From Methanosarcina sp. DH2 (GTDB lineage: Archaea; Halobacteriota; Methanosarcinia; Methanosarcinales; Methanosarcinaceae): DNA of 55,811 nucleotides. The position numbers were made by a program, and so were the translations under genes. The stretch spans positions 2,207-58,017 of the forward strand of contig NZ_WJBI01000006.1 in assembly GCF_020804225.1 (NCBI RefSeq), in the 5' to 3' direction. A model generated the notes under the pieces. That model was not told the origin of the DNA. It did not search any database and saw nothing but the letters and a program-made list of their open reading frames with translations. Shown piece by piece: positions 8,642-18,841 of the stretch; position 1 is the stretch's first letter; every line of letters starts with the position of its first letter.

Positions 8642-8772
8642 ACAGTGAGATTATCAGATAAAAATGATCCTGAATTCCAGCATCCATCAAGCAGAGCTCA
8701 GGCTATCAAGATCCTTGTAAATACTCTTAGTTATGGGGCGTTCATTGAACTTAATCCAGAAGATAAGAAAAA
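8642..8772 (+). pseudogene. remnant of a family-B DNA polymerase (motif B region)
   Basis: In one frame this reads RAQAIKILVNTLSYGAFIE followed by LNPEDKK. It lines up with the polymerase fragment of the element at 12317-18776 (QQKALKILNNSTT-stop-GIYIEMHPKNKEK). K-x(6)-Y-G is the conserved motif B of family-B polymerases. The frame closes soon after, and no other polymerase motif is visible nearby. A further open stretch (8780-8925, ending RVRNILH-stop) in another frame is unassigned. This appears to be the decayed trace of a second polymerase-bearing element just downstream of the surface protein gene. Confidence 0.55.
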
Positions 8773-9087
8773 TTTCATAAGCCTAAGGCTGTTCTTGATT
8801 TCCTGAGCCAAAGGTATCCTGAAATTAAATTTGATATTTCGAATGAACTCGCAAAAATAAGAGCTGTAAATAGTATCAGGGAAATTATGGGAAGGGTGAG
8901 GAATATATTGCATTGATACCTGTGGAATGAGACAATATTTGAGGGTAGATTCCAACCCTATTCTCCCCCTGTTCTTGTACCATCAGGCTATAATTGGCTC
9001 GTACCTATGTGCTCCCAGGTTGGCTTTATCTGTGATCTCTGTGTAAACTCAACGACCTGAACCCCATAATAAAGGAAGGTAATTTAA

Positions 9088-9765: not shown

Positions 9766-9984
9766 TCGGAAAGATTTCAATTCCTCTTTTCGAGCAGTAG
9801 TGGACAGTCCTTAGCGTGCAGGGTACGCATACAAACTTACGTTGATTGGAAGAAATCAGGGTTTTCTAAAGGAACACTGCACTGTATGAAGCAGAATGCC
9901 AAGAGTGATAAGCTATTTGCCCTTAATGCTCATATTCTGGAAAGGGTAAATAAATGGGAAGCGTTGGTTTCAAGTCAAAAGTAA
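9766..9984 (+). pseudogene. basic C-terminal fragment, possibly from a Cas1-type integrase
   Basis: A 73-codon open stretch without a proper start, ending in TAA. The last 50 residues (…VRIQTYVDWKKSGFSKGTLH… to KWEALVSSQK) form a compact, basic, helical tail. The 'W-K-K-x-G-F-S-K-G-T-L-H-x-M-K-x-N-A' pattern resembles the C-terminal segment of some methanosarcinal Cas1 proteins as I remember them; this was not aligned. If right, it is what is left of a cas1 gene next to other casposon-like parts. The upstream catalytic part is absent. Confidence 0.35.
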
Positions 9985-10105
9985 AATGTGTATACTTTTA
10001 CTGTAAAATGTAAAAGTGTAAATTTTACAGGTAAAATAGTAAAAACAGCTTAGGGAGTAGCTGTAAAAGGTTTGTAAACTGGAAATTAATTTTACAGGTT
10101 TTAGC
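9982..10105. repeat. cluster of GTAAAA/TTTTAC motifs
   Basis: About nine copies of GTAAAA or its complement TTTTAC occur in both orientations within some 120 bp, several forming short inverted pairs (for example TTTTACTGTAAAA). It starts right at the end of the possible Cas1 tail and lies about 260 bp upstream of the HNH gene. It could be a set of protein-binding sites or an old origin of the element. From 9594 to 9765 and from 10106 to 10360 I see no further features. Confidence 0.4.
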
Positions 10106-10360
10106 AAAATTCGGTGAAATGGTTCAGAATTGGAGAGAGTTAAGGCTTGGAAAAACTTGGTTTCAGGGTCAGGTTAAGGCTTAGTGGCGATTAAAAAGAG
10201 AATATTATTAATATATACTTTCTACTTATTTTATTAGCATAGGATGTTAATAATAAAACTATTAGATTTCAATACGTGGCTAGTTTTACATAATTTTATA
10301 GTAACTTTTGCACATATCGTTGCAAGATTCTTATTCAATATAACGAGCGGTAAACTTACT

Positions 10361-11473
10361 ATGGCACATAATAATATATTTGTGGATCTGACAGGACAGC
10401 GATTCGGCAAACTCCTTGTAATTAAACGCACTGAAAATAACAAAAGTGGCGTAGCTATGTGGTTATGTCAGTGTGATTGTGGGAATGAAAAAATAACAAG
10501 CGGCGGAAGCCTAAGGAGCGGTGGTACAAAAAGTTGTGGCTGTATACAGGCAGTTGATTTAATAGGTCAACAATTTGGTCAGTTAACTGTGCTAGAACGT
10601 GAAGAGAATACACCTGGTAACACTATGTGGCGTTGTCGATGTGATTGTGGAAATGAAACAATAGTAAGTGGTTCAAACTTACAGACAGGTCACATACAGA
10701 CATGTGGTTGTTCAAAAAAATTGGAAGATTTAACAGGAGAGAGATTTGGTAATTTAATTATAATAAAGCGTGTTGAAAATAATAAATATGGTAAACCTCG
10801 TTTTCTATGTCGATGTGATTGTGGGAATGAAGCAATAGTATCTCGTGAATACTTATTGAAAAGTCCAATAAAGAGTTGCGGTTGTACAAGATTTGGTGAT
10901 TTGAAAGAGCAAAAATTTGGCAAGTTAACTGTATTAAAACGTGATGATAATGGCAAACCTGACTCTGCTCAATGGATATGTCGCTGCGAATGTGGTAATG
11001 AAACAGTAGTATACGTGCACGCTTTACGCAGTGGTCACGTAAGAAGCTGTGGTTGTTTACAGAAAGGCGAGGACGCTAGAACGTCGAAAGAAAATAAAAA
11101 GGAAACGACATTTAACAGAATACTTGCTCAGTATGTAAAACACGCTAAAGAAGCAGAACGCGAATTCCTGTTAACTAAAGAGGAGTTTAGAGAATTGATA
11201 TCATCTAACTGTTATTATTGTGGCAGATTGCCGTCGCAGGTAGCTCGTCACAGACATACTGCAATTCAATACACTGGTATTGATAGAATTGACAACTCGA
11301 AGGGATACACGTTAGATAATGTAAGACCTTGTTGCAAATGGTGTAATGTCGCAAAGTTGAACGCCTCTGAAAAAGAATTTTTATTGAGTATAAAGGCGAT
11401 ATATGAACATCTAAATCTGAAATCGAGAACTTTTGATGTGGAATGTGAACTAACTAAAATCATAGATGAGTAA
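10361..11473 (+). CDS. HNH endonuclease with four N-terminal zinc-ribbon-like modules
   Basis: A 370-residue protein. Four homologous modules of 52-53 residues occupy about 9-61, 66-117, 123-175 and 180-232. Each has the form DLTGQRFGKL...W-x-C-x-C-D-C-G-N-E...S-C-G-C, giving five conserved cysteines. A linker leads to a C-terminal HNH nuclease (about 250-355) with CYYCG, GIDRIDNSKGY, NVRPCCKWCN. Such modules are known at the N-terminus of phage HNH proteins, where they probably bind DNA. ATG 10361 starts just before the first module; an in-frame ATG at 10244 adds a stretch unlike the family. AT-rich codon use differs from the trp and enolase genes. Probably a homing-type or element-encoded nuclease. 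Confidence 0.8.
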   Translation: MAHNNIFVDLTGQRFGKLLVIKRTENNKSGVAMWLCQCDCGNEKITSGGSLRSGGTKSCGCIQAVDLIGQQFGQLTVLEREENTPGNTMWRCRCDCGNETIVSGSNLQTGHIQTCGCSKKLEDLTGERFGNLIIIKRVENNKYGKPRFLCRCDCGNEAIVSREYLLKSPIKSCGCTRFGDLKEQKFGKLTVLKRDDNGKPDSAQWICRCECGNETVVYVHALRSGHVRSCGCLQKGEDARTSKENKKETTFNRILAQYVKHAKEAEREFLLTKEEFRELISSNCYYCGRLPSQVARHRHTAIQYTGIDRIDNSKGYTLDNVRPCCKWCNVAKLNASEKEFLLSIKAIYEHLNLKSRTFDVECELTKIIDE

Positions 11474-11493
11474 ATATGAGTAGGTGCTAATAA

Positions 11494-12054
11494 ATGCCGA
11501 AATTTGTTGATTTAACAAGAGAGAGATTTGGGGCGCTAACTGTAATTAAGCGTGTTGAAAATAATAAACACGGCTACGCTATGTGGGAATGCCGATGTGA
11601 TTGCGGAAATGAAACAATAGTGGGTCGTTCAGAATTACGTGCCGGTCATATAAGCAGTTGCGGGTGTTTAAAGGGAAAAATTGTTAATTCAGTTAGTAAG
11701 AGAACGTTTGGCAGTTTACTTGGCGCGTATAAAAGAAATGCTAAAAAAACAAACCGCGAATTTTTATTAACAGATGAGGAATTTAAAGAATTAGTACTAT
11801 CTGGTTGCCATTATTGTGGGAAAAAACCATTACAATCAACAAACAACTACTCAAATGGCGTTATGATTTATAACGGGATAGATAGAATTGATAATTCACA
11901 AGGATATATTCCAGGCAATGTAAGAGCTTGTTGTACGATGTGCAACTATATCAAAAATAAAAATTTCGAAGTAGCTTTTCTGTTAATGGTAAAAACGATA
12001 TATGAAAATATGCGTTTAGAATCATATATTAGCGATAAAACCAATAATGATTAA
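11494..12054 (+). CDS. HNH endonuclease with one zinc-ribbon-like module
   Basis: A 186-residue paralogue of the preceding gene, 20 bp downstream of it. It has only one module (residues about 5-57, DLTRERFGAL to SSCGC) and then the same nuclease domain (CHYCG, GIDRIDNSQGY, NVRACCTMCN). A TAGGTG precedes ATG 11494. The pair look like a duplication in which the number of modules changed from four to one or the reverse. Both lie left of the terminal repeat at 12233-12302, so they may be cargo of the element that repeat belonged to. Confidence 0.8.
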   Translation: MPKFVDLTRERFGALTVIKRVENNKHGYAMWECRCDCGNETIVGRSELRAGHISSCGCLKGKIVNSVSKRTFGSLLGAYKRNAKKTNREFLLTDEEFKELVLSGCHYCGKKPLQSTNNYSNGVMIYNGIDRIDNSQGYIPGNVRACCTMCNYIKNKNFEVAFLLMVKTIYENMRLESYISDKTNND

Positions 12055-12232
12055 TAATACTTTTTAAAATATCCTTATAAAGATACTTATTAGAAAAAAT
12101 ATATAATACAATACAGTTTTTATTAAAATTACTCTCAAAAATACTGTAGAAATATCTTATAGTAGCATACGAAAAGTTGACTTCTTTTTTCAGGTAAATT
12201 GTAAAAAGAAGAGTACTCCTTTTGTTAGGGCG

Positions 12233-12302
12233 ATTTTCTAAAAAATGCGGTTGTGCATATTCTTCACACTTGCGTTGCGTTTTTTAGAGTTACCTATATC
12301 CC
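12233..12302 (-). repeat. right terminal inverted repeat of a second, left-hand element
   Basis: Read from 12302 leftward, this begins GGGATATAGGTAAC and later has GCACAACCGCATTTTTTAG. It matches, with divergence, the terminal repeats of the 12317-18776 element (GGGATATATATAAC ... GCACAACCGTTTTTTAG). It ends at the same 14-bp target sequence (12303-12316). So it looks like the right end of another element inserted at the same target. No matching left end was found upstream; that end is probably lost. The stretch 12055-12232 holds nothing else I can name. Confidence 0.65.
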
Positions 12303-12316
12303 CCATTAAGAGTGCG
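12303..12316. repeat. 14-bp target-site duplication, left copy
   Basis: CCATTAAGAGTGCG occurs here and again at 18777-18790, immediately outside the two terminal inverted repeats. A 14-bp duplication is long for most DNA transposons and within the range reported for casposons (14-15 bp). Confidence 0.85.
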
Positions 12317-12378
12317 GGGATATATATAACAACAAAAAAGTATACGCCGTTTTGTGAGATTTACGCACAACCGTTTTT
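12317..12378 (+). repeat. left terminal inverted repeat of the element
   Basis: Starts GGGATATATATAACAAC and ends GCACAACCGTTTTT. Only two positions (12363-12364) differ from the reverse complement of the right end. Confidence 0.9.
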
Positions 12379-12895
12379 CAAAAGTCTTCCTGTCTAAAAT
12401 TAATTCATTTTTATAAATTAAAGCTTAAAAAATAGTGTACTCTTTGCAGATATTATGCACAACAGTTAATTTAGAGAAGTCGTCTTAACAAAAAATAAAT
12501 TTCTGCAATTTTTACGTAAAATGAATGAAGTGTAATTCTTATAAAAAGAGTGAAAACATTCAAAGTTGAAATGTAATGATCATATTAGACAAATAAGAAA
12601 CAAGAAATTTAGATTTTAGGTAGAATAAGATTTATAATTAACTAATCGCCAAAATTTATCTTCATGATGTAGTAAAAGATTTAATAATCCATTTTATTTT
12701 TCTATTTCATTAAGTATCATTATTTTGTTACTATATTACAACCTTTTTAAAAAAGTTATAATTAAAAAGTATTATAATCTATGACAGTTATTAGTCATAA
12801 TACGGGTCCATTGAATAAAAAATGAACATTTACAAAATCGTTGAGAAACTTCACAATTGAGGCACCCGTGTAAAATATTTCAAGGAGGTATTTTT
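12379..12895. other. AT-rich spacer inside the element
   Basis: No gene seen. A short piece near 12460-12475 (ATGCACAACAGTT) resembles the inner part of the terminal repeat and may be a sub-terminal binding site or a relic. Just before the next gene lies a strong ribosome binding site (AAGGAGGT, 12882-12889). Confidence 0.4.
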
Positions 12896-14560
12896 ATGAG
12901 TGAGTTGGAAAGTATCTTAATTACTAGCCCTGAATCCTTACCTAGTTTCTTCCGTGATGTCCAAGTTATTGGTCCCGCACACCTTGAGTTACAAAAATAT
13001 CGCGCAAAATATTCTAAATTGGATATCTCATCCAAACCCACTAATTGTGAAGTCCGTGCAGATAAAAGTCCTATGCTGTTAGTGCCCAAAGAAGTGAGGG
13101 AGGCTTATCAGCGTAACGACTTTGCAGCGATCAAAAAATTTGAAACACAATCTCAGGAGGACCTTCAAGCTGTATACGATAATGTTTCAAAAAACGGCGA
13201 AAAAGCTTGGACGAAAGTCAAAAAAGATGGTAAAGAATTCTATATGAGCTGGTCGGATAAAGGATCTATGTGGGCTTATACAGTAAGTACAAGCACCTCT
13301 GACGACGTAACCCAGCAAGCTTTGGTTCAAATTGGCACTTACTCTAAATCAACTTCAGTTCTCGGTCTCCAATCGTACAATTTGACCTTGCCTACTGTAG
13401 TTGCTGAGTCATTAATTGCCTTAATTGTGGCTAGAGCGGTTTCCGGCATCATCGCTGAAGGCCTTGGCTTTGCAATTGCTAGTTTCTCTTTACTTCTGGC
13501 TCAAGCTGCTGCTGCAGCCGGTTTTGAATCATTCTCATTCGCTATCCCCGTCGCTTTGGTGTCCACTGTGGCATCTTGTTTGGTATTTGCCGTTGTGTTT
13601 ATTGGCTTGGCGTATTTATGGAACTGGTTGAACCGAAAATACACCATTCGGTTGCAGGTTTTTAATTGGGACTACACGAATGATTGGAGTGTCAATGGGC
13701 AATATCTCTCGAATGCCACGATCTGTGGTGGTAACGGTGATAATAAGGTGTTAAATTTTACTTTACCTAAAATGGTAAAACCAGGTGATGTGGTTACGCC
13801 TCCTGGATTTGATCCAGTAGAGGCTCTTGATTCTGTGTGCTATTATGGGGTAATCATCTGGGAGAATGACAACACCTTCGCGCAAGGCTGTTCAATGGCT
13901 ATACCAATAGAGAAAAATAAAAACGAAGGGTTCATGTGGGCATTTGACTGTCCCCGTTTCTCTAGCAACCAACAAGCAGCCGAGAATGGAATAAAAGACC
14001 CAAAAATTTATCGGGATACATGCCATTGGAACGAACAACCATTAGGCTTTAAAATCACTTCCTCGAAGATTCCAGTTAGTTTTGCCTTAGATGCTTTGAG
14101 TGGTGCCTCTGATGGTCTTTACAACATCAATATACATATAGGTGAGTTGCTGGAGCAGACAATAGACTTTTCCATACAAGACCCGAAACCAACTGCGCAG
14201 CTCTCAATGACGTCTCATCAAGGAGCAGGATACCGTGAAGACTTCCATACATGGTCTTTGCTGGAAAATGACGGATTTATGAAGTTAAACTTGAATATTC
14301 CAGTTCCGATTCCAGTTACTTTAACCATGGGGCTGTGTGCTGCTCTTGTAGACGGCAAGGCAGATTGCCCGTTCTCAATTAAAGTTAATGGCAATTTTAT
14401 TGTTAAAGGCTCCAGAGATAATAAGTGTGATTTCCATCCGGTGGAGTTCACGATTAATGAAAGCTTGCTGAAAGCAGGAGATAACGAAATTATTATCTCA
14501 CTGGAAAGAGATGCCTCCACTCAATTATTTATCAATGCAGCAACTGTGTCGGAAAAATAA
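12896..14560 (+). CDS. cargo protein with central membrane hairpin and beta-rich C-terminus
   Basis: A 554-residue protein that I do not recognise. Start ATG 12896 follows AAGGAGGT by 6 bases, a textbook site stronger than most in this window. No signal peptide is seen. Residues 1-160 are polar. Residues about 167-245 are two or three long hydrophobic helices rich in Ala, Ile and Phe, closed by LYWNW-like aromatic residues (AYLWNWLNRKY). Residues 250-554 look beta-rich with many Asn, Trp and Cys. A soluble N-terminus, hydrophobic helical hairpins and a beta-sandwich-like C-terminus recall pore-forming effector proteins, but that is only a structural analogy. Base composition is higher than its AT-rich surroundings and the codon use is unlike the nearby HNH genes, suggesting separate transfer into the element. 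Confidence 0.7.
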   Translation: MSELESILITSPESLPSFFRDVQVIGPAHLELQKYRAKYSKLDISSKPTNCEVRADKSPMLLVPKEVREAYQRNDFAAIKKFETQSQEDLQAVYDNVSKNGEKAWTKVKKDGKEFYMSWSDKGSMWAYTVSTSTSDDVTQQALVQIGTYSKSTSVLGLQSYNLTLPTVVAESLIALIVARAVSGIIAEGLGFAIASFSLLLAQAAAAAGFESFSFAIPVALVSTVASCLVFAVVFIGLAYLWNWLNRKYTIRLQVFNWDYTNDWSVNGQYLSNATICGGNGDNKVLNFTLPKMVKPGDVVTPPGFDPVEALDSVCYYGVIIWENDNTFAQGCSMAIPIEKNKNEGFMWAFDCPRFSSNQQAAENGIKDPKIYRDTCHWNEQPLGFKITSSKIPVSFALDALSGASDGLYNINIHIGELLEQTIDFSIQDPKPTAQLSMTSHQGAGYREDFHTWSLLENDGFMKLNLNIPVPIPVTLTMGLCAALVDGKADCPFSIKVNGNFIVKGSRDNKCDFHPVEFTINESLLKAGDNEIIISLERDASTQLFINAATVSEK

Positions 14561-14675
14561 TTCCGCGATTGTCTCACAAGGACAGCTCACATGTGCCATT
14601 TTTAAGCAAATGGAGCATGTGGGCTGTCATAGTGTATGAAAACACAAACTACATCTGTTCTAAAGGTATTTACTA

Positions 14676-14811
14676 ATTGAGCCTATCCCAAAACTCTTAA
14701 TTTGCTTCTTTGTATCTGTATTTTAAACAACTAATCGAAATTTTGGCTATGAAGCCAATTCTGAGTATTTCTAACAATTGAGAATAAAACAGGCTTTGGG
14801 ATGAGCTCAAT
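14676..14811. mobile_element. 136-bp MITE, copy 1
   Basis: Inverted ends ATTGAGCCTATCCCAAAA and, reversed, ATTGAGCTCATCCCAAAG bound a non-coding piece. Its reverse complement lines up with the similar piece at 38452-38578 (AGCTCATCCCAAA..., then TTTTATTCT). It is probably a non-autonomous derivative of an insertion sequence, sitting between the cargo gene and the polymerase remnant. Confidence 0.65.
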
Positions 14812-14837
14812 ATGAAATTTATAAAAAGGAATATAAA

Positions 14838-17527
14838 TCAATAACTCAAATAATCCATCACCTTCCTCATCTCTAGAGTATTCAGATTAAAATCCCTTTC
14901 CTTCACTCTTTTTTTCAAATCACTCAACGCCTTTCTATATTTTATGCCAATCTCCCTGGCTTTAGCAGGAGTTAAATTCAGAACAAATTCCCTGATCTTT
15001 TCAATGTCTGGGTACGTTTCAACATTATTGCTCTCAAGCTCCTGCATCTCTATCTTGTTTGCTTCTTTTCCGATATACACACATCCTTTAGGCTTCAGAT
15101 GTCTCCTTTGTAAGACTCCAATATCTCCTTCAAACTTGGCTTCAGGATGGTCTATGTAATCAAGAAATATATCACTTAATGGCTTCCAGTATTCCCTTCC
15201 CTGAAGTGTATCTCCTGTATTGTAATCAATGAATTCTTTCTCAACTACAATCTGTGGATTTGTATTGAAAGGAGCAACAGGCTTAATCTTCTCTACGTCT
15301 GTGCCAGCTTTTGCACCATTACCTACAAGAAAGAAATTAAAAGGTTTAATTTGTTCATTAAATGGTTTTCCCTTATTCATTTTCTTGAATCTTATCAGGA
15401 TAATTCCTGTCGATACCGCGAGCTTAGAGATAACTGCATAATTCTCATACTTCTCTAATACATCAGGTAACTCTTCAGGATGAAAATGAACCTGGAGAAT
15501 GTCTTCCCAGAACTGCTTATGCCATTTATCCCCTTCCTTTAATTCTCTGCTAAATGGATTTGTGATATGTCCCAATCCATGTAGCTTGTAGAAAAGCTTC
15601 TTACCTTCAGGAATTGTGATTTTATTTCCATCTCTTTGGAACAGACAATATCTTTTAGAACTGATTCCATAAAACCAGATATCTTCCATTCCATCTTCTA
15701 TTTCTAGAATCGGCTTATTGAAATCATAAGGATTCAGAGAATCAAAGAGATGGCTTAATTCATAAGCGAGATATGGAGGAACAAATATTGAATCTGTATC
15801 CATGTAAGCATGTACTTCTCCTTTGTCCATCATAAACTTCTCTGCAATCGCAAGTAAAAACCTAGCTCCTGCTGTAATACTAGCTCCAATAATAGGATTG
15901 AAATATTTACCAAGTTCTTCATATTTGCCTTCAGACTCGAATTGAATGGTACTAAACACATCCAACTTTTCCTTATTCTTTGGATGCATCTCGATATAGA
16001 TTCCTTATGTGGTGGAATTATTGAGAATCTTTAAGGCTTTCTGCTGTGAATCCAGAACATCGTATTCATGAGAATCCTTAGACATTTCCTTCATTTCGTC
16101 CTTTATTTTCTGCCTGCGTTCAACAAGGACTTTGATAAGATTGTCTTCTTTAGGATTTACGTGGACTCCATAGATTTCTGAATCTTTAAGCCCTTCCTGT
16201 ATTTCTTCAGGAATGAACTTGATAGCCTTCTTGATCTTAGGAAGCTTGCCTGTAAGCAGCTTTGAGGCTAAAATGTCTGAGAGAAAGTAATACAATGATC
16301 CATTGAACGTTATATAATTAATTCCGATGTTGAATGTTCCATCATCATCTGCATATTTCGTTCTGACTGGGAGTATGTCCTCATCAGGCTCGATTTCAAC
16401 CAGGACATTCAATTGTTTCCAAAAATCATGGTTGAGTGCATCTTCGAAAGTGAATTCCTCGATCAACCGTTGAGTATTCTCCGTGTCATCAATGTACTGA
16501 ATCTTATCTACAATGGTGAATTCCCAGGGACCAAGAAGAAGTGTTACTGTTGGGTACATGCTGAAAAAGTCTAAAACTGTAACTTTAACAGGCGTTTTTC
16601 TGATTCTGCATTCACATCTTCCTCCATAGTATTCACTCATGAGTCTACCGAGAATTGTAGGAGGGAAATCAGGGTTCTGTTGCATAAAAGGCTTAATGTT
16701 TAACTGACTAAGTGCCTGTTTTCCAAGACTGGCGGCTGAATAATACCAGTCATTGGTATGCCTAACTGATACCTTTCATACTCCTGTCTTACTTTTTTGA
16801 ATAGTTCATAAGTGGCTTTTACATCTGTAAGATTATAACCAATATATCCTGGAGTTATTACTCCATGCTTCTCTGTTGATTTCTTCTTTATTGGAGTATC
16901 AAAGATCTCACAGGCTTTTTCAAGTGTAAGAGATTTATTGTCAGTTAAAGTACAGGCAAGATTACTTAAATCCAGGAAATTGCCCTTAAAGGTTCTCTCC
17001 TTTCTGTATTTGCCCTTTGCTCTGGTAAACTCAACATTGTATGATCTCCCATTTAGATGCTTTATACGTAAACGCGGATAGGTTGTATCCTCAGTAAGTT
17101 TAAAGGAAAAACCATCCTTACGTGAATATCTGCCATGACCGTAGTCAAGAATAATCCTTGACAGATCGAAGTTGATATTGTAACCAATACAGAGTGTTTT
17201 TCTTTCATAGACATCCAGATAAAAAATTTGGATGAACTCTTCAAGAGAGAATAAGCGTATGTTATGTTCTTCTGCATACTTTTTTAGAATTTCATACTCT
17301 TTTTCCGTAACGTGCCTATGATCCCAGAATAAACCTCCATAAAGGAAAATATCATTCTCATGTACGGCGAAAGAGCCAAATTTCAAATTAAGAAACTCAT
17401 CCGCTGTGGTTTCTGTATCAAGTGTAATAACTCTGGGGAAATAGAGATTCTCAAATATTTTGCTATTTGTTGGCTTAATAATCGAGCCCTTTCTGCGTGG
17501 AAATCCCCTCAGAGCTATGTGTTCCAT
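14838..17527 (-). pseudogene. polB: family-B DNA polymerase, casposon type, broken twice
   Basis: Read right to left, three frames together make one polymerase of about 890 residues. The first (17527-16700) has the 3'-5' exonuclease: TLDTETTADEF (Exo I), YNINFDLSRI (Exo II) and GYNLTDVKATYE (Exo III). Near 16735 the frame shifts: the first frame goes to a TAA at 16700, while the next frame reads AASLGKQALSQLNIKPFM into the second part. The second part (16685-16005) has motif A, DFFSMYPTV, and enters motif B as KILNNSTT, where an in-frame TAA (16007-16005) replaces the expected tyrosine of the YG pair. The third part (15989-14838) continues in the same frame (GIYIEMHPK) and has motif C, YMDTDSIF, and SSKRYCLF. 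Length and the companion HNH gene fit the protein-primed polymerases of casposons. It is almost certainly inactive. Confidence 0.85.
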
Positions 17528-17883
17528 CTGTTTTCCCCCCAATAGAACTGATTGAGTAATACCAGTTCCTTTTCTGCCATTCTACTTCTCAGAGCTGAAT
17601 GTGTAAGCCAAATGTAAGGAATACGAGATTTCAAATCTAGTTGTTTTGACCTAAATTTAGGTGGTATCCTGTTCTGTAATTGAGTTATAACAGCATGACA
17701 ATTAAGGCAAAGTACACAGGTTTCTGATGAAAAACCTACAGTTGAAATATGATGATCTTCAAAAATCCGAAGAGCATAAGGGTTTGTTTCTCCACAACAC
17801 TCACATATTCCATTTTGTACTAGATTAGCAAACTTCGCTTGTTCTTTCAACTTTGCAAGTAAGTCAAGCGGGAGTTGATCCAA
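17515..17883 (-). CDS. HNH nuclease of casposon type
   Basis: A 122-residue protein with an HNH zinc-type fold: CECCGETNP, EDHHIST, CVLCLNCH. The paired C-x-x-C motifs hold structural zinc and the HH pair is the catalytic site of the family. Its end overlaps the polymerase start by 13-28 bp, so the two were co-transcribed and probably co-translated. Casposons of Methanosarcina commonly carry a short HNH gene next to polB. The start is uncertain: the TTG at 17883 overlaps the upstream frame and has no clear ribosome binding site. The catalytic residues look intact. Confidence 0.7.
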   Translation of the reverse strand: MDQLPLDLLAKLKEQAKFANLVQNGICECCGETNPYALRIFEDHHISTVGFSSETCVLCLNCHAVITQLQNRIPPKFRSKQLDLKSRIPYIWLTHSALRSRMAEKELVLLNQFYWGENRWNT

Positions 17884-18160
17884 TGTTGATTAAATTTAGT
17901 GGAATTGAGTACATAGGAGGAAAATGGGGTTTTGTTTCTTTTAAAAACTCGCCCTCCCATAAAATTGGAAGTGATGTCCCTAATTCGTCTATCCATGTGT
18001 TTGTGGCTAAAATAGTAGCATTTTTTGATGTAATATGAAGTTTGGGTGAGTTTGCCAAATTTCTTTGTTTTTTTAGTTCATTTAATGTGAAGAAAGATAC
18101 AACTGATGTTAAAAAAGTAGCTAAATTAAGAATATTTTCTGACCATAGTGAGCTATTCAT
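17864..18160 (-). pseudogene. truncated membrane-anchored hypothetical protein
   Basis: A 98-residue frame starting MNSSLWSENILNLATF, with one membrane helix (LATFLTSVVSFFTLNEL), then a short beta-type region ending LINIGSTPA and a stop. Proteins with this beginning usually continue past an 'L-x-N-I-G-x-G-x-A' turn for another 100 or more residues, so this copy looks cut where the HNH gene begins. It may instead be a real short gene. Function unknown. Confidence 0.45.
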
Positions 18161-18714
18161 TTTCTACGTGTTTAACTTATTTCAATATAAATTAAGCACA
18201 TTTCGAAAGAATATAACTTTTCGAAATATTTCTGTTATATCTTTTTCATTCCATGATGAATTATGATTTTTTTTCTTGCAAAGCAGATTTAATGAGAAAA
18301 TTTGTTATTATTGAATTTAGTTTTGGATATATTAATAAAGTTACTATTATAAGGTACTTTTGAACTATACTCTTTCTTGCTAAATTTTCCAATTCTTTGT
18401 CTTTGACATTTTCTAATTTCACAGCAATTTCCGTAGTTATAAATATTTATCTTTCTATATAATTTCGCTTCAAAACGTAGCAATTAGTAATTCCCATTTT
18501 ATTCAATAATAACTATTATTCACATTCTTATCTCTTTGAGTTTTGAGAATAAGTCTGAAAGAAAGGACGTACTTAAGAGAATCAGAGTAAGAAAAATAAG
18601 AAAAAAATAGTCTCATATTATTTTCATTATACAAATCAGTGTATAAAAGATCCAATTCTTTTATTAAATCGATGCCATGAAACGATCTTTTATTTTAGTT
18701 GAGGCACCTTTCTA
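18161..18714. other. AT-rich spacer inside the element, right side
   Basis: Only short random frames are present. I see no gene, no hairpin of note and no recombinase remnant. The right terminal repeat begins at 18715. Confidence 0.5.
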
Positions 18715-18776
18715 AAAAACGGTTGTGCAGAAATCTCACAAAACGGCGTATACTTTTTTGTTGTTATATATATCCC
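18715..18776 (-). repeat. right terminal inverted repeat of the element
   Basis: Reverse complement of the left end with two differences. It ends ATATATATCCC against the right copy of the duplicated target. Confidence 0.9.
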
Positions 18777-18790
18777 CCATTAAGAGTGCG
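18777..18790. repeat. 14-bp target-site duplication, right copy
   Basis: CCATTAAGAGTGCG, identical to 12303-12316. It lies about 50 bp past the stop codon of the minus-strand gene at 18842, so the target was the 3' flank of that gene, not a tRNA gene. Confidence 0.85.
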
Positions 18791-18841
18791 AGGGGTGAAA
18801 TTCCAACTTACGCCTGACTGTGGGAAGGAAATTGCTGTAAA

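Follow-up and report, generated by a model that had tools for sequence, protein, structure and literature searches.

Two casposon-related units on one 14-bp target in Methanosarcina sp. DH2, and the polarity of casposon arrays in its family

How do two mobile elements come to share a single target? The question is raised by a stretch of 55,811 nucleotides (the whole of it called here the window) from contig C30 in the 4.6-Mb assembly of Methanosarcina sp. DH2. The 14-bp sequence CCATTAAGAGTGCG occurs there at 12303-12316 and again at 18777-18790 (both on the + strand), identically, and nowhere else in the genome even when one mismatch is allowed. The two copies enclose an element of 6,460 bp, E2 (12317-18776). 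The original prediction, made from the letters alone, was that a second terminal repeat, facing the opposite way, meets the first of these copies from the left, that two related elements therefore share one target, and that this is what would result if an integrase, acting site-specifically, inserted repeatedly where an earlier insertion ends, much as Cas1 adds spacers to a CRISPR array.

The second repeat is there. A profile of casposon ends matches 12221-12302 (+) out to the outermost base (E = 8e-18), with the tip abutting the target, so one element, E1, ends at 12302 and the other begins at 12317. The terminal 31 bp of E1, read from the outside inwards (as the reverse complement), are GGGATATAGGTAACTCTAAAAAACGCAACGC, and agree at 30 of 31 positions with the published terminal inverted repeat (TIR) of MetMaz-C1, a family 2 casposon of Methanosarcina mazei, a score that none of 5,000 shuffles reached. 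When the E1 end is aligned with the two repeats of E2, the score against the right TIR exceeds those of all 5,000 shuffles and the score against the left TIR is reached by 10 of them. Could the repeat have arisen within E2, as a tandem duplication of that element's TIR? Several casposon ends do carry TIR-like copies about 100 bp further in, among them the left end of E2 (12428-12492, - strand; profile positions 2-69, E = 8e-6), but those copies lack the tip, whereas the E1 end has it. Moreover, the E1 end is of the MetMaz-C1 subtype, unlike the TIR of E2, it faces away from E2, and relics of cas1 and polB lie behind it. A duplication is contradicted by tip, subtype, orientation and relics alike, and I give it almost no credence.

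By its sequence, E1 is a decayed casposon that has lost its left end. Its gene for a family B DNA polymerase is reduced to a 40-residue fragment (8654-8773, +; 85% amino acid identity to residues 482-521 of casposon PolB), and its casposase gene, cas1, to two decayed pieces, at 8770-9012 (+; tblastn E = 2e-10) and, from the C-terminus, at 9805-9987 (+; 63-69% amino acid identity, E = 3e-16). From the cas1 remnant to the right end is 2.3 kb, against about 2.45 kb in MetMaz-C1 (same coordinates in genome G008). These relics lie within the interval of 8.6-10.3 kb where a third copy of the 14-mer had been suspected; there is no such copy there, nor elsewhere in the window or genome. The lost left end was likewise to be looked for upstream, and pattern, profile and inverted-TIR searches of the window and the genome found neither a left TIR to partner the right one nor an outer copy of the target site duplication (TSD). 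With both missing, E1's own target duplication cannot be demonstrated, which must be counted against the history proposed below. E1 also contains two genes for HNH endonucleases built of repeated motifs (10244-12054, +; phrog_374, E = 2e-79 and 6e-24). They have no counterpart in the other casposons retrieved, and may be cargo of E1 or a later insert. Their proteins bear cysteine-rich repeats, four in one gene and one in the other, and phrog_374 HNH genes of this kind are almost absent from the genus. A separate curiosity is that a PolB fragment is fused directly to a casposase fragment in three relics (window 8654-9012; L137:10326-10942; L138:10344-10624), with a different fusion point each time.

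E2 has ends in far better order. Its left TIR (12317-12397, -; profile E = 6e-17) and right TIR (18695-18776, +; E = 1e-19) are inverted over 68 nt at 94% identity, the outer 31 nt are identical, and the type sequence is GGGATATATATAACAACAAAAAAGTATACGC. Since the tips (31/31) and the target copies (14/14) are perfect, E2 was integrated in the normal way. Inside is a polB pseudogene (14838-17542, -), 37-46% identical over its whole length to the PolB of a casposon on contig C17, broken by one frameshift near 16700 and by an in-frame TAA at 16005-16007 within a conserved motif. Adjoining it is a gene for an HNH protein (17515-17883, -), found by tblastn to resemble the HNH protein next to polB in several casposon loci (E from 1e-7 to 1e-9), and the order of the two genes is that of intact casposons. 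A small open reading frame of 98 aa follows (17864-18160, -). At the other side is a cargo reading frame of 567 aa (12857-14560, +), for whose product Pfam, NCBIfam, PHROGs and PADLOC gave no match; its middle is strongly hydrophobic, and its one partial relative is in a single Methanosarcina genome, G019. What was not found, by tblastn within E2 or by a Cas1 profile anywhere on C30, is cas1. For this reason E2 is classed from its sequence as a casposon-derived, cas1-less element, not as an autonomous casposon, and its integration was probably carried out in trans, by a casposase whose gene lies elsewhere. The first reading is to be refined to that extent: neither E1 nor E2 now has a working cas1, hence the placement of E2 was probably the work of another element's enzyme. 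Full-length casposases, of 409 and 411 aa, are encoded on contigs C17 and C29 of the same genome.

There are published accounts of what casposases demand of a target. The M. mazei enzyme needs some 30 bp of tRNA-Leu in addition to the target, and that of A. boonei a leader motif along with the target's first bases. In loci related to the one considered here, the 14-bp copy ends in TGCG and next to it stands AGGGGTGGGATTCGAACC, which is a tRNA-Leu T-arm in reverse complement; the T-arm block follows the TSD in other casposons as well, and a complete tRNA gene is often present at the TSD. The window contains no complete tRNA gene, and its T-arm block is degenerate: AGGGGTGAAATTCCAAC (18791-18807, +), which agrees with AGGGGTGGGATTCGAAC at 14 of 17 positions. 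Even so, it is the best T-arm match on either strand of the window, and it lies exactly at the edge of the target, adjoining the CGCA edge of the TSD beside the copy at 18777-18790. A T-arm in this place fits the requirements of both enzymes, and I will call it the leader.

MetMaz-C1 offers the closest comparison. It shares with the locus the TIR found at the E1 end, a 14-bp TSD ending in TGCG and a target at the T-arm of tRNA-Leu, and the casposon of this type in G008, which has the TIR and TSD sequences of MetMaz-C1, lies nearer the leader than a relic, a decayed casposon end close by on its distal side. It differs in that its cas1 and polB are intact, where E1 is a relic, and E2 has no cas1, a TIR of another subtype and a PolB with no more than about 46% identity. 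Nor are casposons in tandem anything new. They were reported in Methanococcoides (Krupovic 2014), in Methanosarcina (Krupovic 2016), and later in Nitrosopumilus (Nitrosopumilus adriaticus NF5), and a mini-casposon formed a tandem in vivo in M. mazei Go1. Those cases are like this one in being head to tail with a copy of the target between the units; they differ in that the older unit is here a relic that has lost its left end, and the younger one has no cas1. The locus adds one more case to a phenomenon already in the literature.

I propose, with considerable confidence, that it is a two-unit casposon array, in which E1 came first and E2 was stacked on its leader side by a casposase acting in trans. 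I infer this order from the perfect ends of E2, from the decay of E1, and from a close relative, G004, where the relic occurs without E2. For the biochemical steps I follow what has been published on the casposase of M. mazei. A MetMaz-C1-like E1 would have inserted at a 14-bp site beside a sequence like the T-arm of tRNA-Leu, duplicating the site. A casposase from another element of the same genome would have recognized the T-arm-like leader together with the TGCG edge of the target copy on that side, joining the ends of E2 across this copy with a 14-bp stagger. Repair would then have duplicated the target again, leaving E2 between E1 and the leader. E1 would have decayed and lost its left end afterwards, or already before E2 arrived.

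One might suppose instead that homologous recombination between casposons joined the E1 end to E2, and that there was no second insertion into the same target. Two arrays elsewhere lend this some plausibility. That of G044 (L063:1-20000 with L066, on G044:C54), made up of two complete units and a distal remnant, has target copies that differ at 5 of 14 positions, aaaagaagagtgcg and then ataactttagtgcg twice, which also tells against the proposed mode of growth and is unexpected because simple duplication of one target would give like copies. In G136 (G136:C1 1614079-1628303), the target polarity is reversed at one junction relative to the adjoining ones, as though a unit had turned round. In the window, however, identical target copies flank two perfect E2 tips, the expected product of a single integration, and recombination is a very improbable account of this locus.

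Stacking on the leader side of a relic is not peculiar to the window within this genome. A second array, on C29, reads from its distal side: decayed cas1, shared target copy, an intact casposon of 18.4 kb, target copy, leader. This is the layout of the window, a decayed unit distal and an element with good ends next to the leader. Relatives are less simple to interpret. G004 has the E1 cas1 relic (94% identical over 1,122 bp) upstream of a flanking gene common to both genomes, along with one or more decayed casposon ends, and E2 is absent. In the relic the two genomes agree more closely than in the flanking gene (94% against 83%), so shared descent is in some doubt, and on these sequences simple inheritance of the relic is not proven. 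In G014, G008, G003 and G005 the whole region of 5.6-18.8 kb is absent, with unrelated intergenic DNA in its place, and a search of relatives for an exact empty site found none.

Does the rule hold more widely? A sequence-only profile of casposon ends found them in 30 of 31 Methanosarcina genomes, together with further back-to-back junctions, and a junction pattern matched in 28 of the 186 genomes of the order, a control pattern in none. Flanks were retrieved for most junctions, and ends, target copies, casposase genes and PolB genes were mapped on them. The family-wide search gave about 57 junctions in 42 arrays. Beyond TGCG there was a T-arm leader wherever the sequence could be followed, with the TTYGAA block of the T-loop in 23 of 29 leader ends; the array of G163, whose target lacks TGCG, was oriented by its T-arm. 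The junction pattern also matched six times in viral contigs, and a casposase scan of named genomes gave just two distant matches, both in Methanosarcina.

Polarity was counted in the 31 arrays whose sequence could be read for 8 kb or more on each side of the junction. An intact casposase is found only in the leader-side neighbour in 15 arrays (from 13 genomes), only in the distal one in none, and in both in three; the split of 15 to 0 has a probability of 6e-5 by a two-sided sign test. Intact PolB is confined to the leader side in 11 and to the distal side in none. An outer end matched by its TSD is found only on the leader side in 25, only on the distal side in two and on both in one, and the two distal ends, each with 4 mismatches to the target, are probably due to chance. 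Apparent distal-only cases in G164b and G124 were artefacts of contig or sequence edges and vanished with more sequence or under the 8-kb rule. Identity between left and right TIRs was tried as a measure of age and rejected, showing no trend along the array. Two arrays have three complete units: in G121 the target copies are identical, and in G165 only the leader-proximal unit has an unbroken casposase.

Such a polarity might be an effect of survival. If insertion took place at either target copy, and ends were retained where they adjoin a tRNA gene or what is left of one, while distal ends were freely deleted, then the leader side would merely seem younger. Many single Methanosarcina casposon ends do adjoin tRNA-Leu or a remnant of it and have no detectable partner, as this account would have it. 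Yet it leaves three things unaccounted for: the decay of complete inner elements increases with distance from the leader (cas1 in G165, polB in G044, also G136a and G163, the reverse in no array), intact casposase genes are split 15 to 0, and arrays stand at broken tRNA remnants, as in the window, where there is no tRNA gene. I consider it unlikely. A different objection to a strict rule comes from the mini-casposon tandem, which entered the TSD of MetMaz-C1 designated "left". With cas1 on the left and polB on the right, and polB nearer the leader in G008, the order of genes makes that TSD seem the leader-distal one. The mini-casposon may have arrived by another route, recombination through TSD-TIR sequences that it has in common with the chromosome. 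On balance I think it likely that the casposon arrays of Methanosarcinaceae grow strictly from the leader end at tRNA T-arms, so that the order of units is an order in time, and that casposons without cas1 are mobilized in trans. The literature searched, which is that apart from the 2016 M. mazei paper, contains no description of a consistent leader-side polarity or of cas1-less casposons.

The earlier comparison with the growth of CRISPR arrays has thus gained support: the casposon integrase is a homologue of Cas1, the intact element is on the leader side throughout the family, and the cas1 remnants of E1, the TSD and the T-arm leader agree with repeated insertion at one site. The likeness between casposon arrays and CRISPR arrays has been remarked on before in the literature. 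In both, an integrase of the Cas1 family acts at a fixed leader and duplicates the target at each insertion, and the newest unit adjoins the leader. The differences are no less clear. Each unit of a casposon array is an entire transposon, 2-20 kb long, with TIRs and 14-bp target copies, there is no Cas2, and there is no evidence that such arrays confer immunity. The present locus has neither short regular spacers nor Cas1-Cas2, and no Cas1 gene is on its contig; it works like growth from a leader end and is not a CRISPR array. Tn7 islands at attTn7 are similar in the repeated use of one site and the decay of older copies, and different in that transposase and target are unrelated.

CRISPR adaptation is thought to have descended from casposons. 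If natural casposons stack with the newest at the leader, then the leader-first rule was already present in natural transposons with Cas1, and the rule that defines CRISPR growth predates CRISPR. Methanosarcinaceae would supply many natural arrays on which to test it. The units without cas1 suggest that casposases act in trans on foreign ends, the step needed to pass from transposon to spacer integrase. What deserves to be followed up is the family-wide polarity and the cas1-less members, which make a useful new test of CRISPR-like growth.

Some of these members differ from E2. An element of 8,020 bp in G146 (L232:7-8026) has TIRs of 31/31, a TSD of 14/14, intact PolB and HNH genes and no cas1, and it carries a gene with a SIR2 domain (Pfam SIR2_2, SIR2 models of PADLOC), possibly cargo for defence. 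Elements of about 2 kb in G018 (L121:4392-6408) and G155 (G155:C2, about 78381-80480) have casposon ends, target copies and a leader, with neither cas1 nor polB, and to judge from that structure are MITE-like miniature casposons. Finally, additional tip-less copies of the TIR motif, one or two per end, are frequent about 100 bp inward of casposon ends (besides that in E2, G008:C1 1771165-1771235, G017:C241 2717-2895 and G044:C54 13424-13488); they might be additional binding sites for the casposase.
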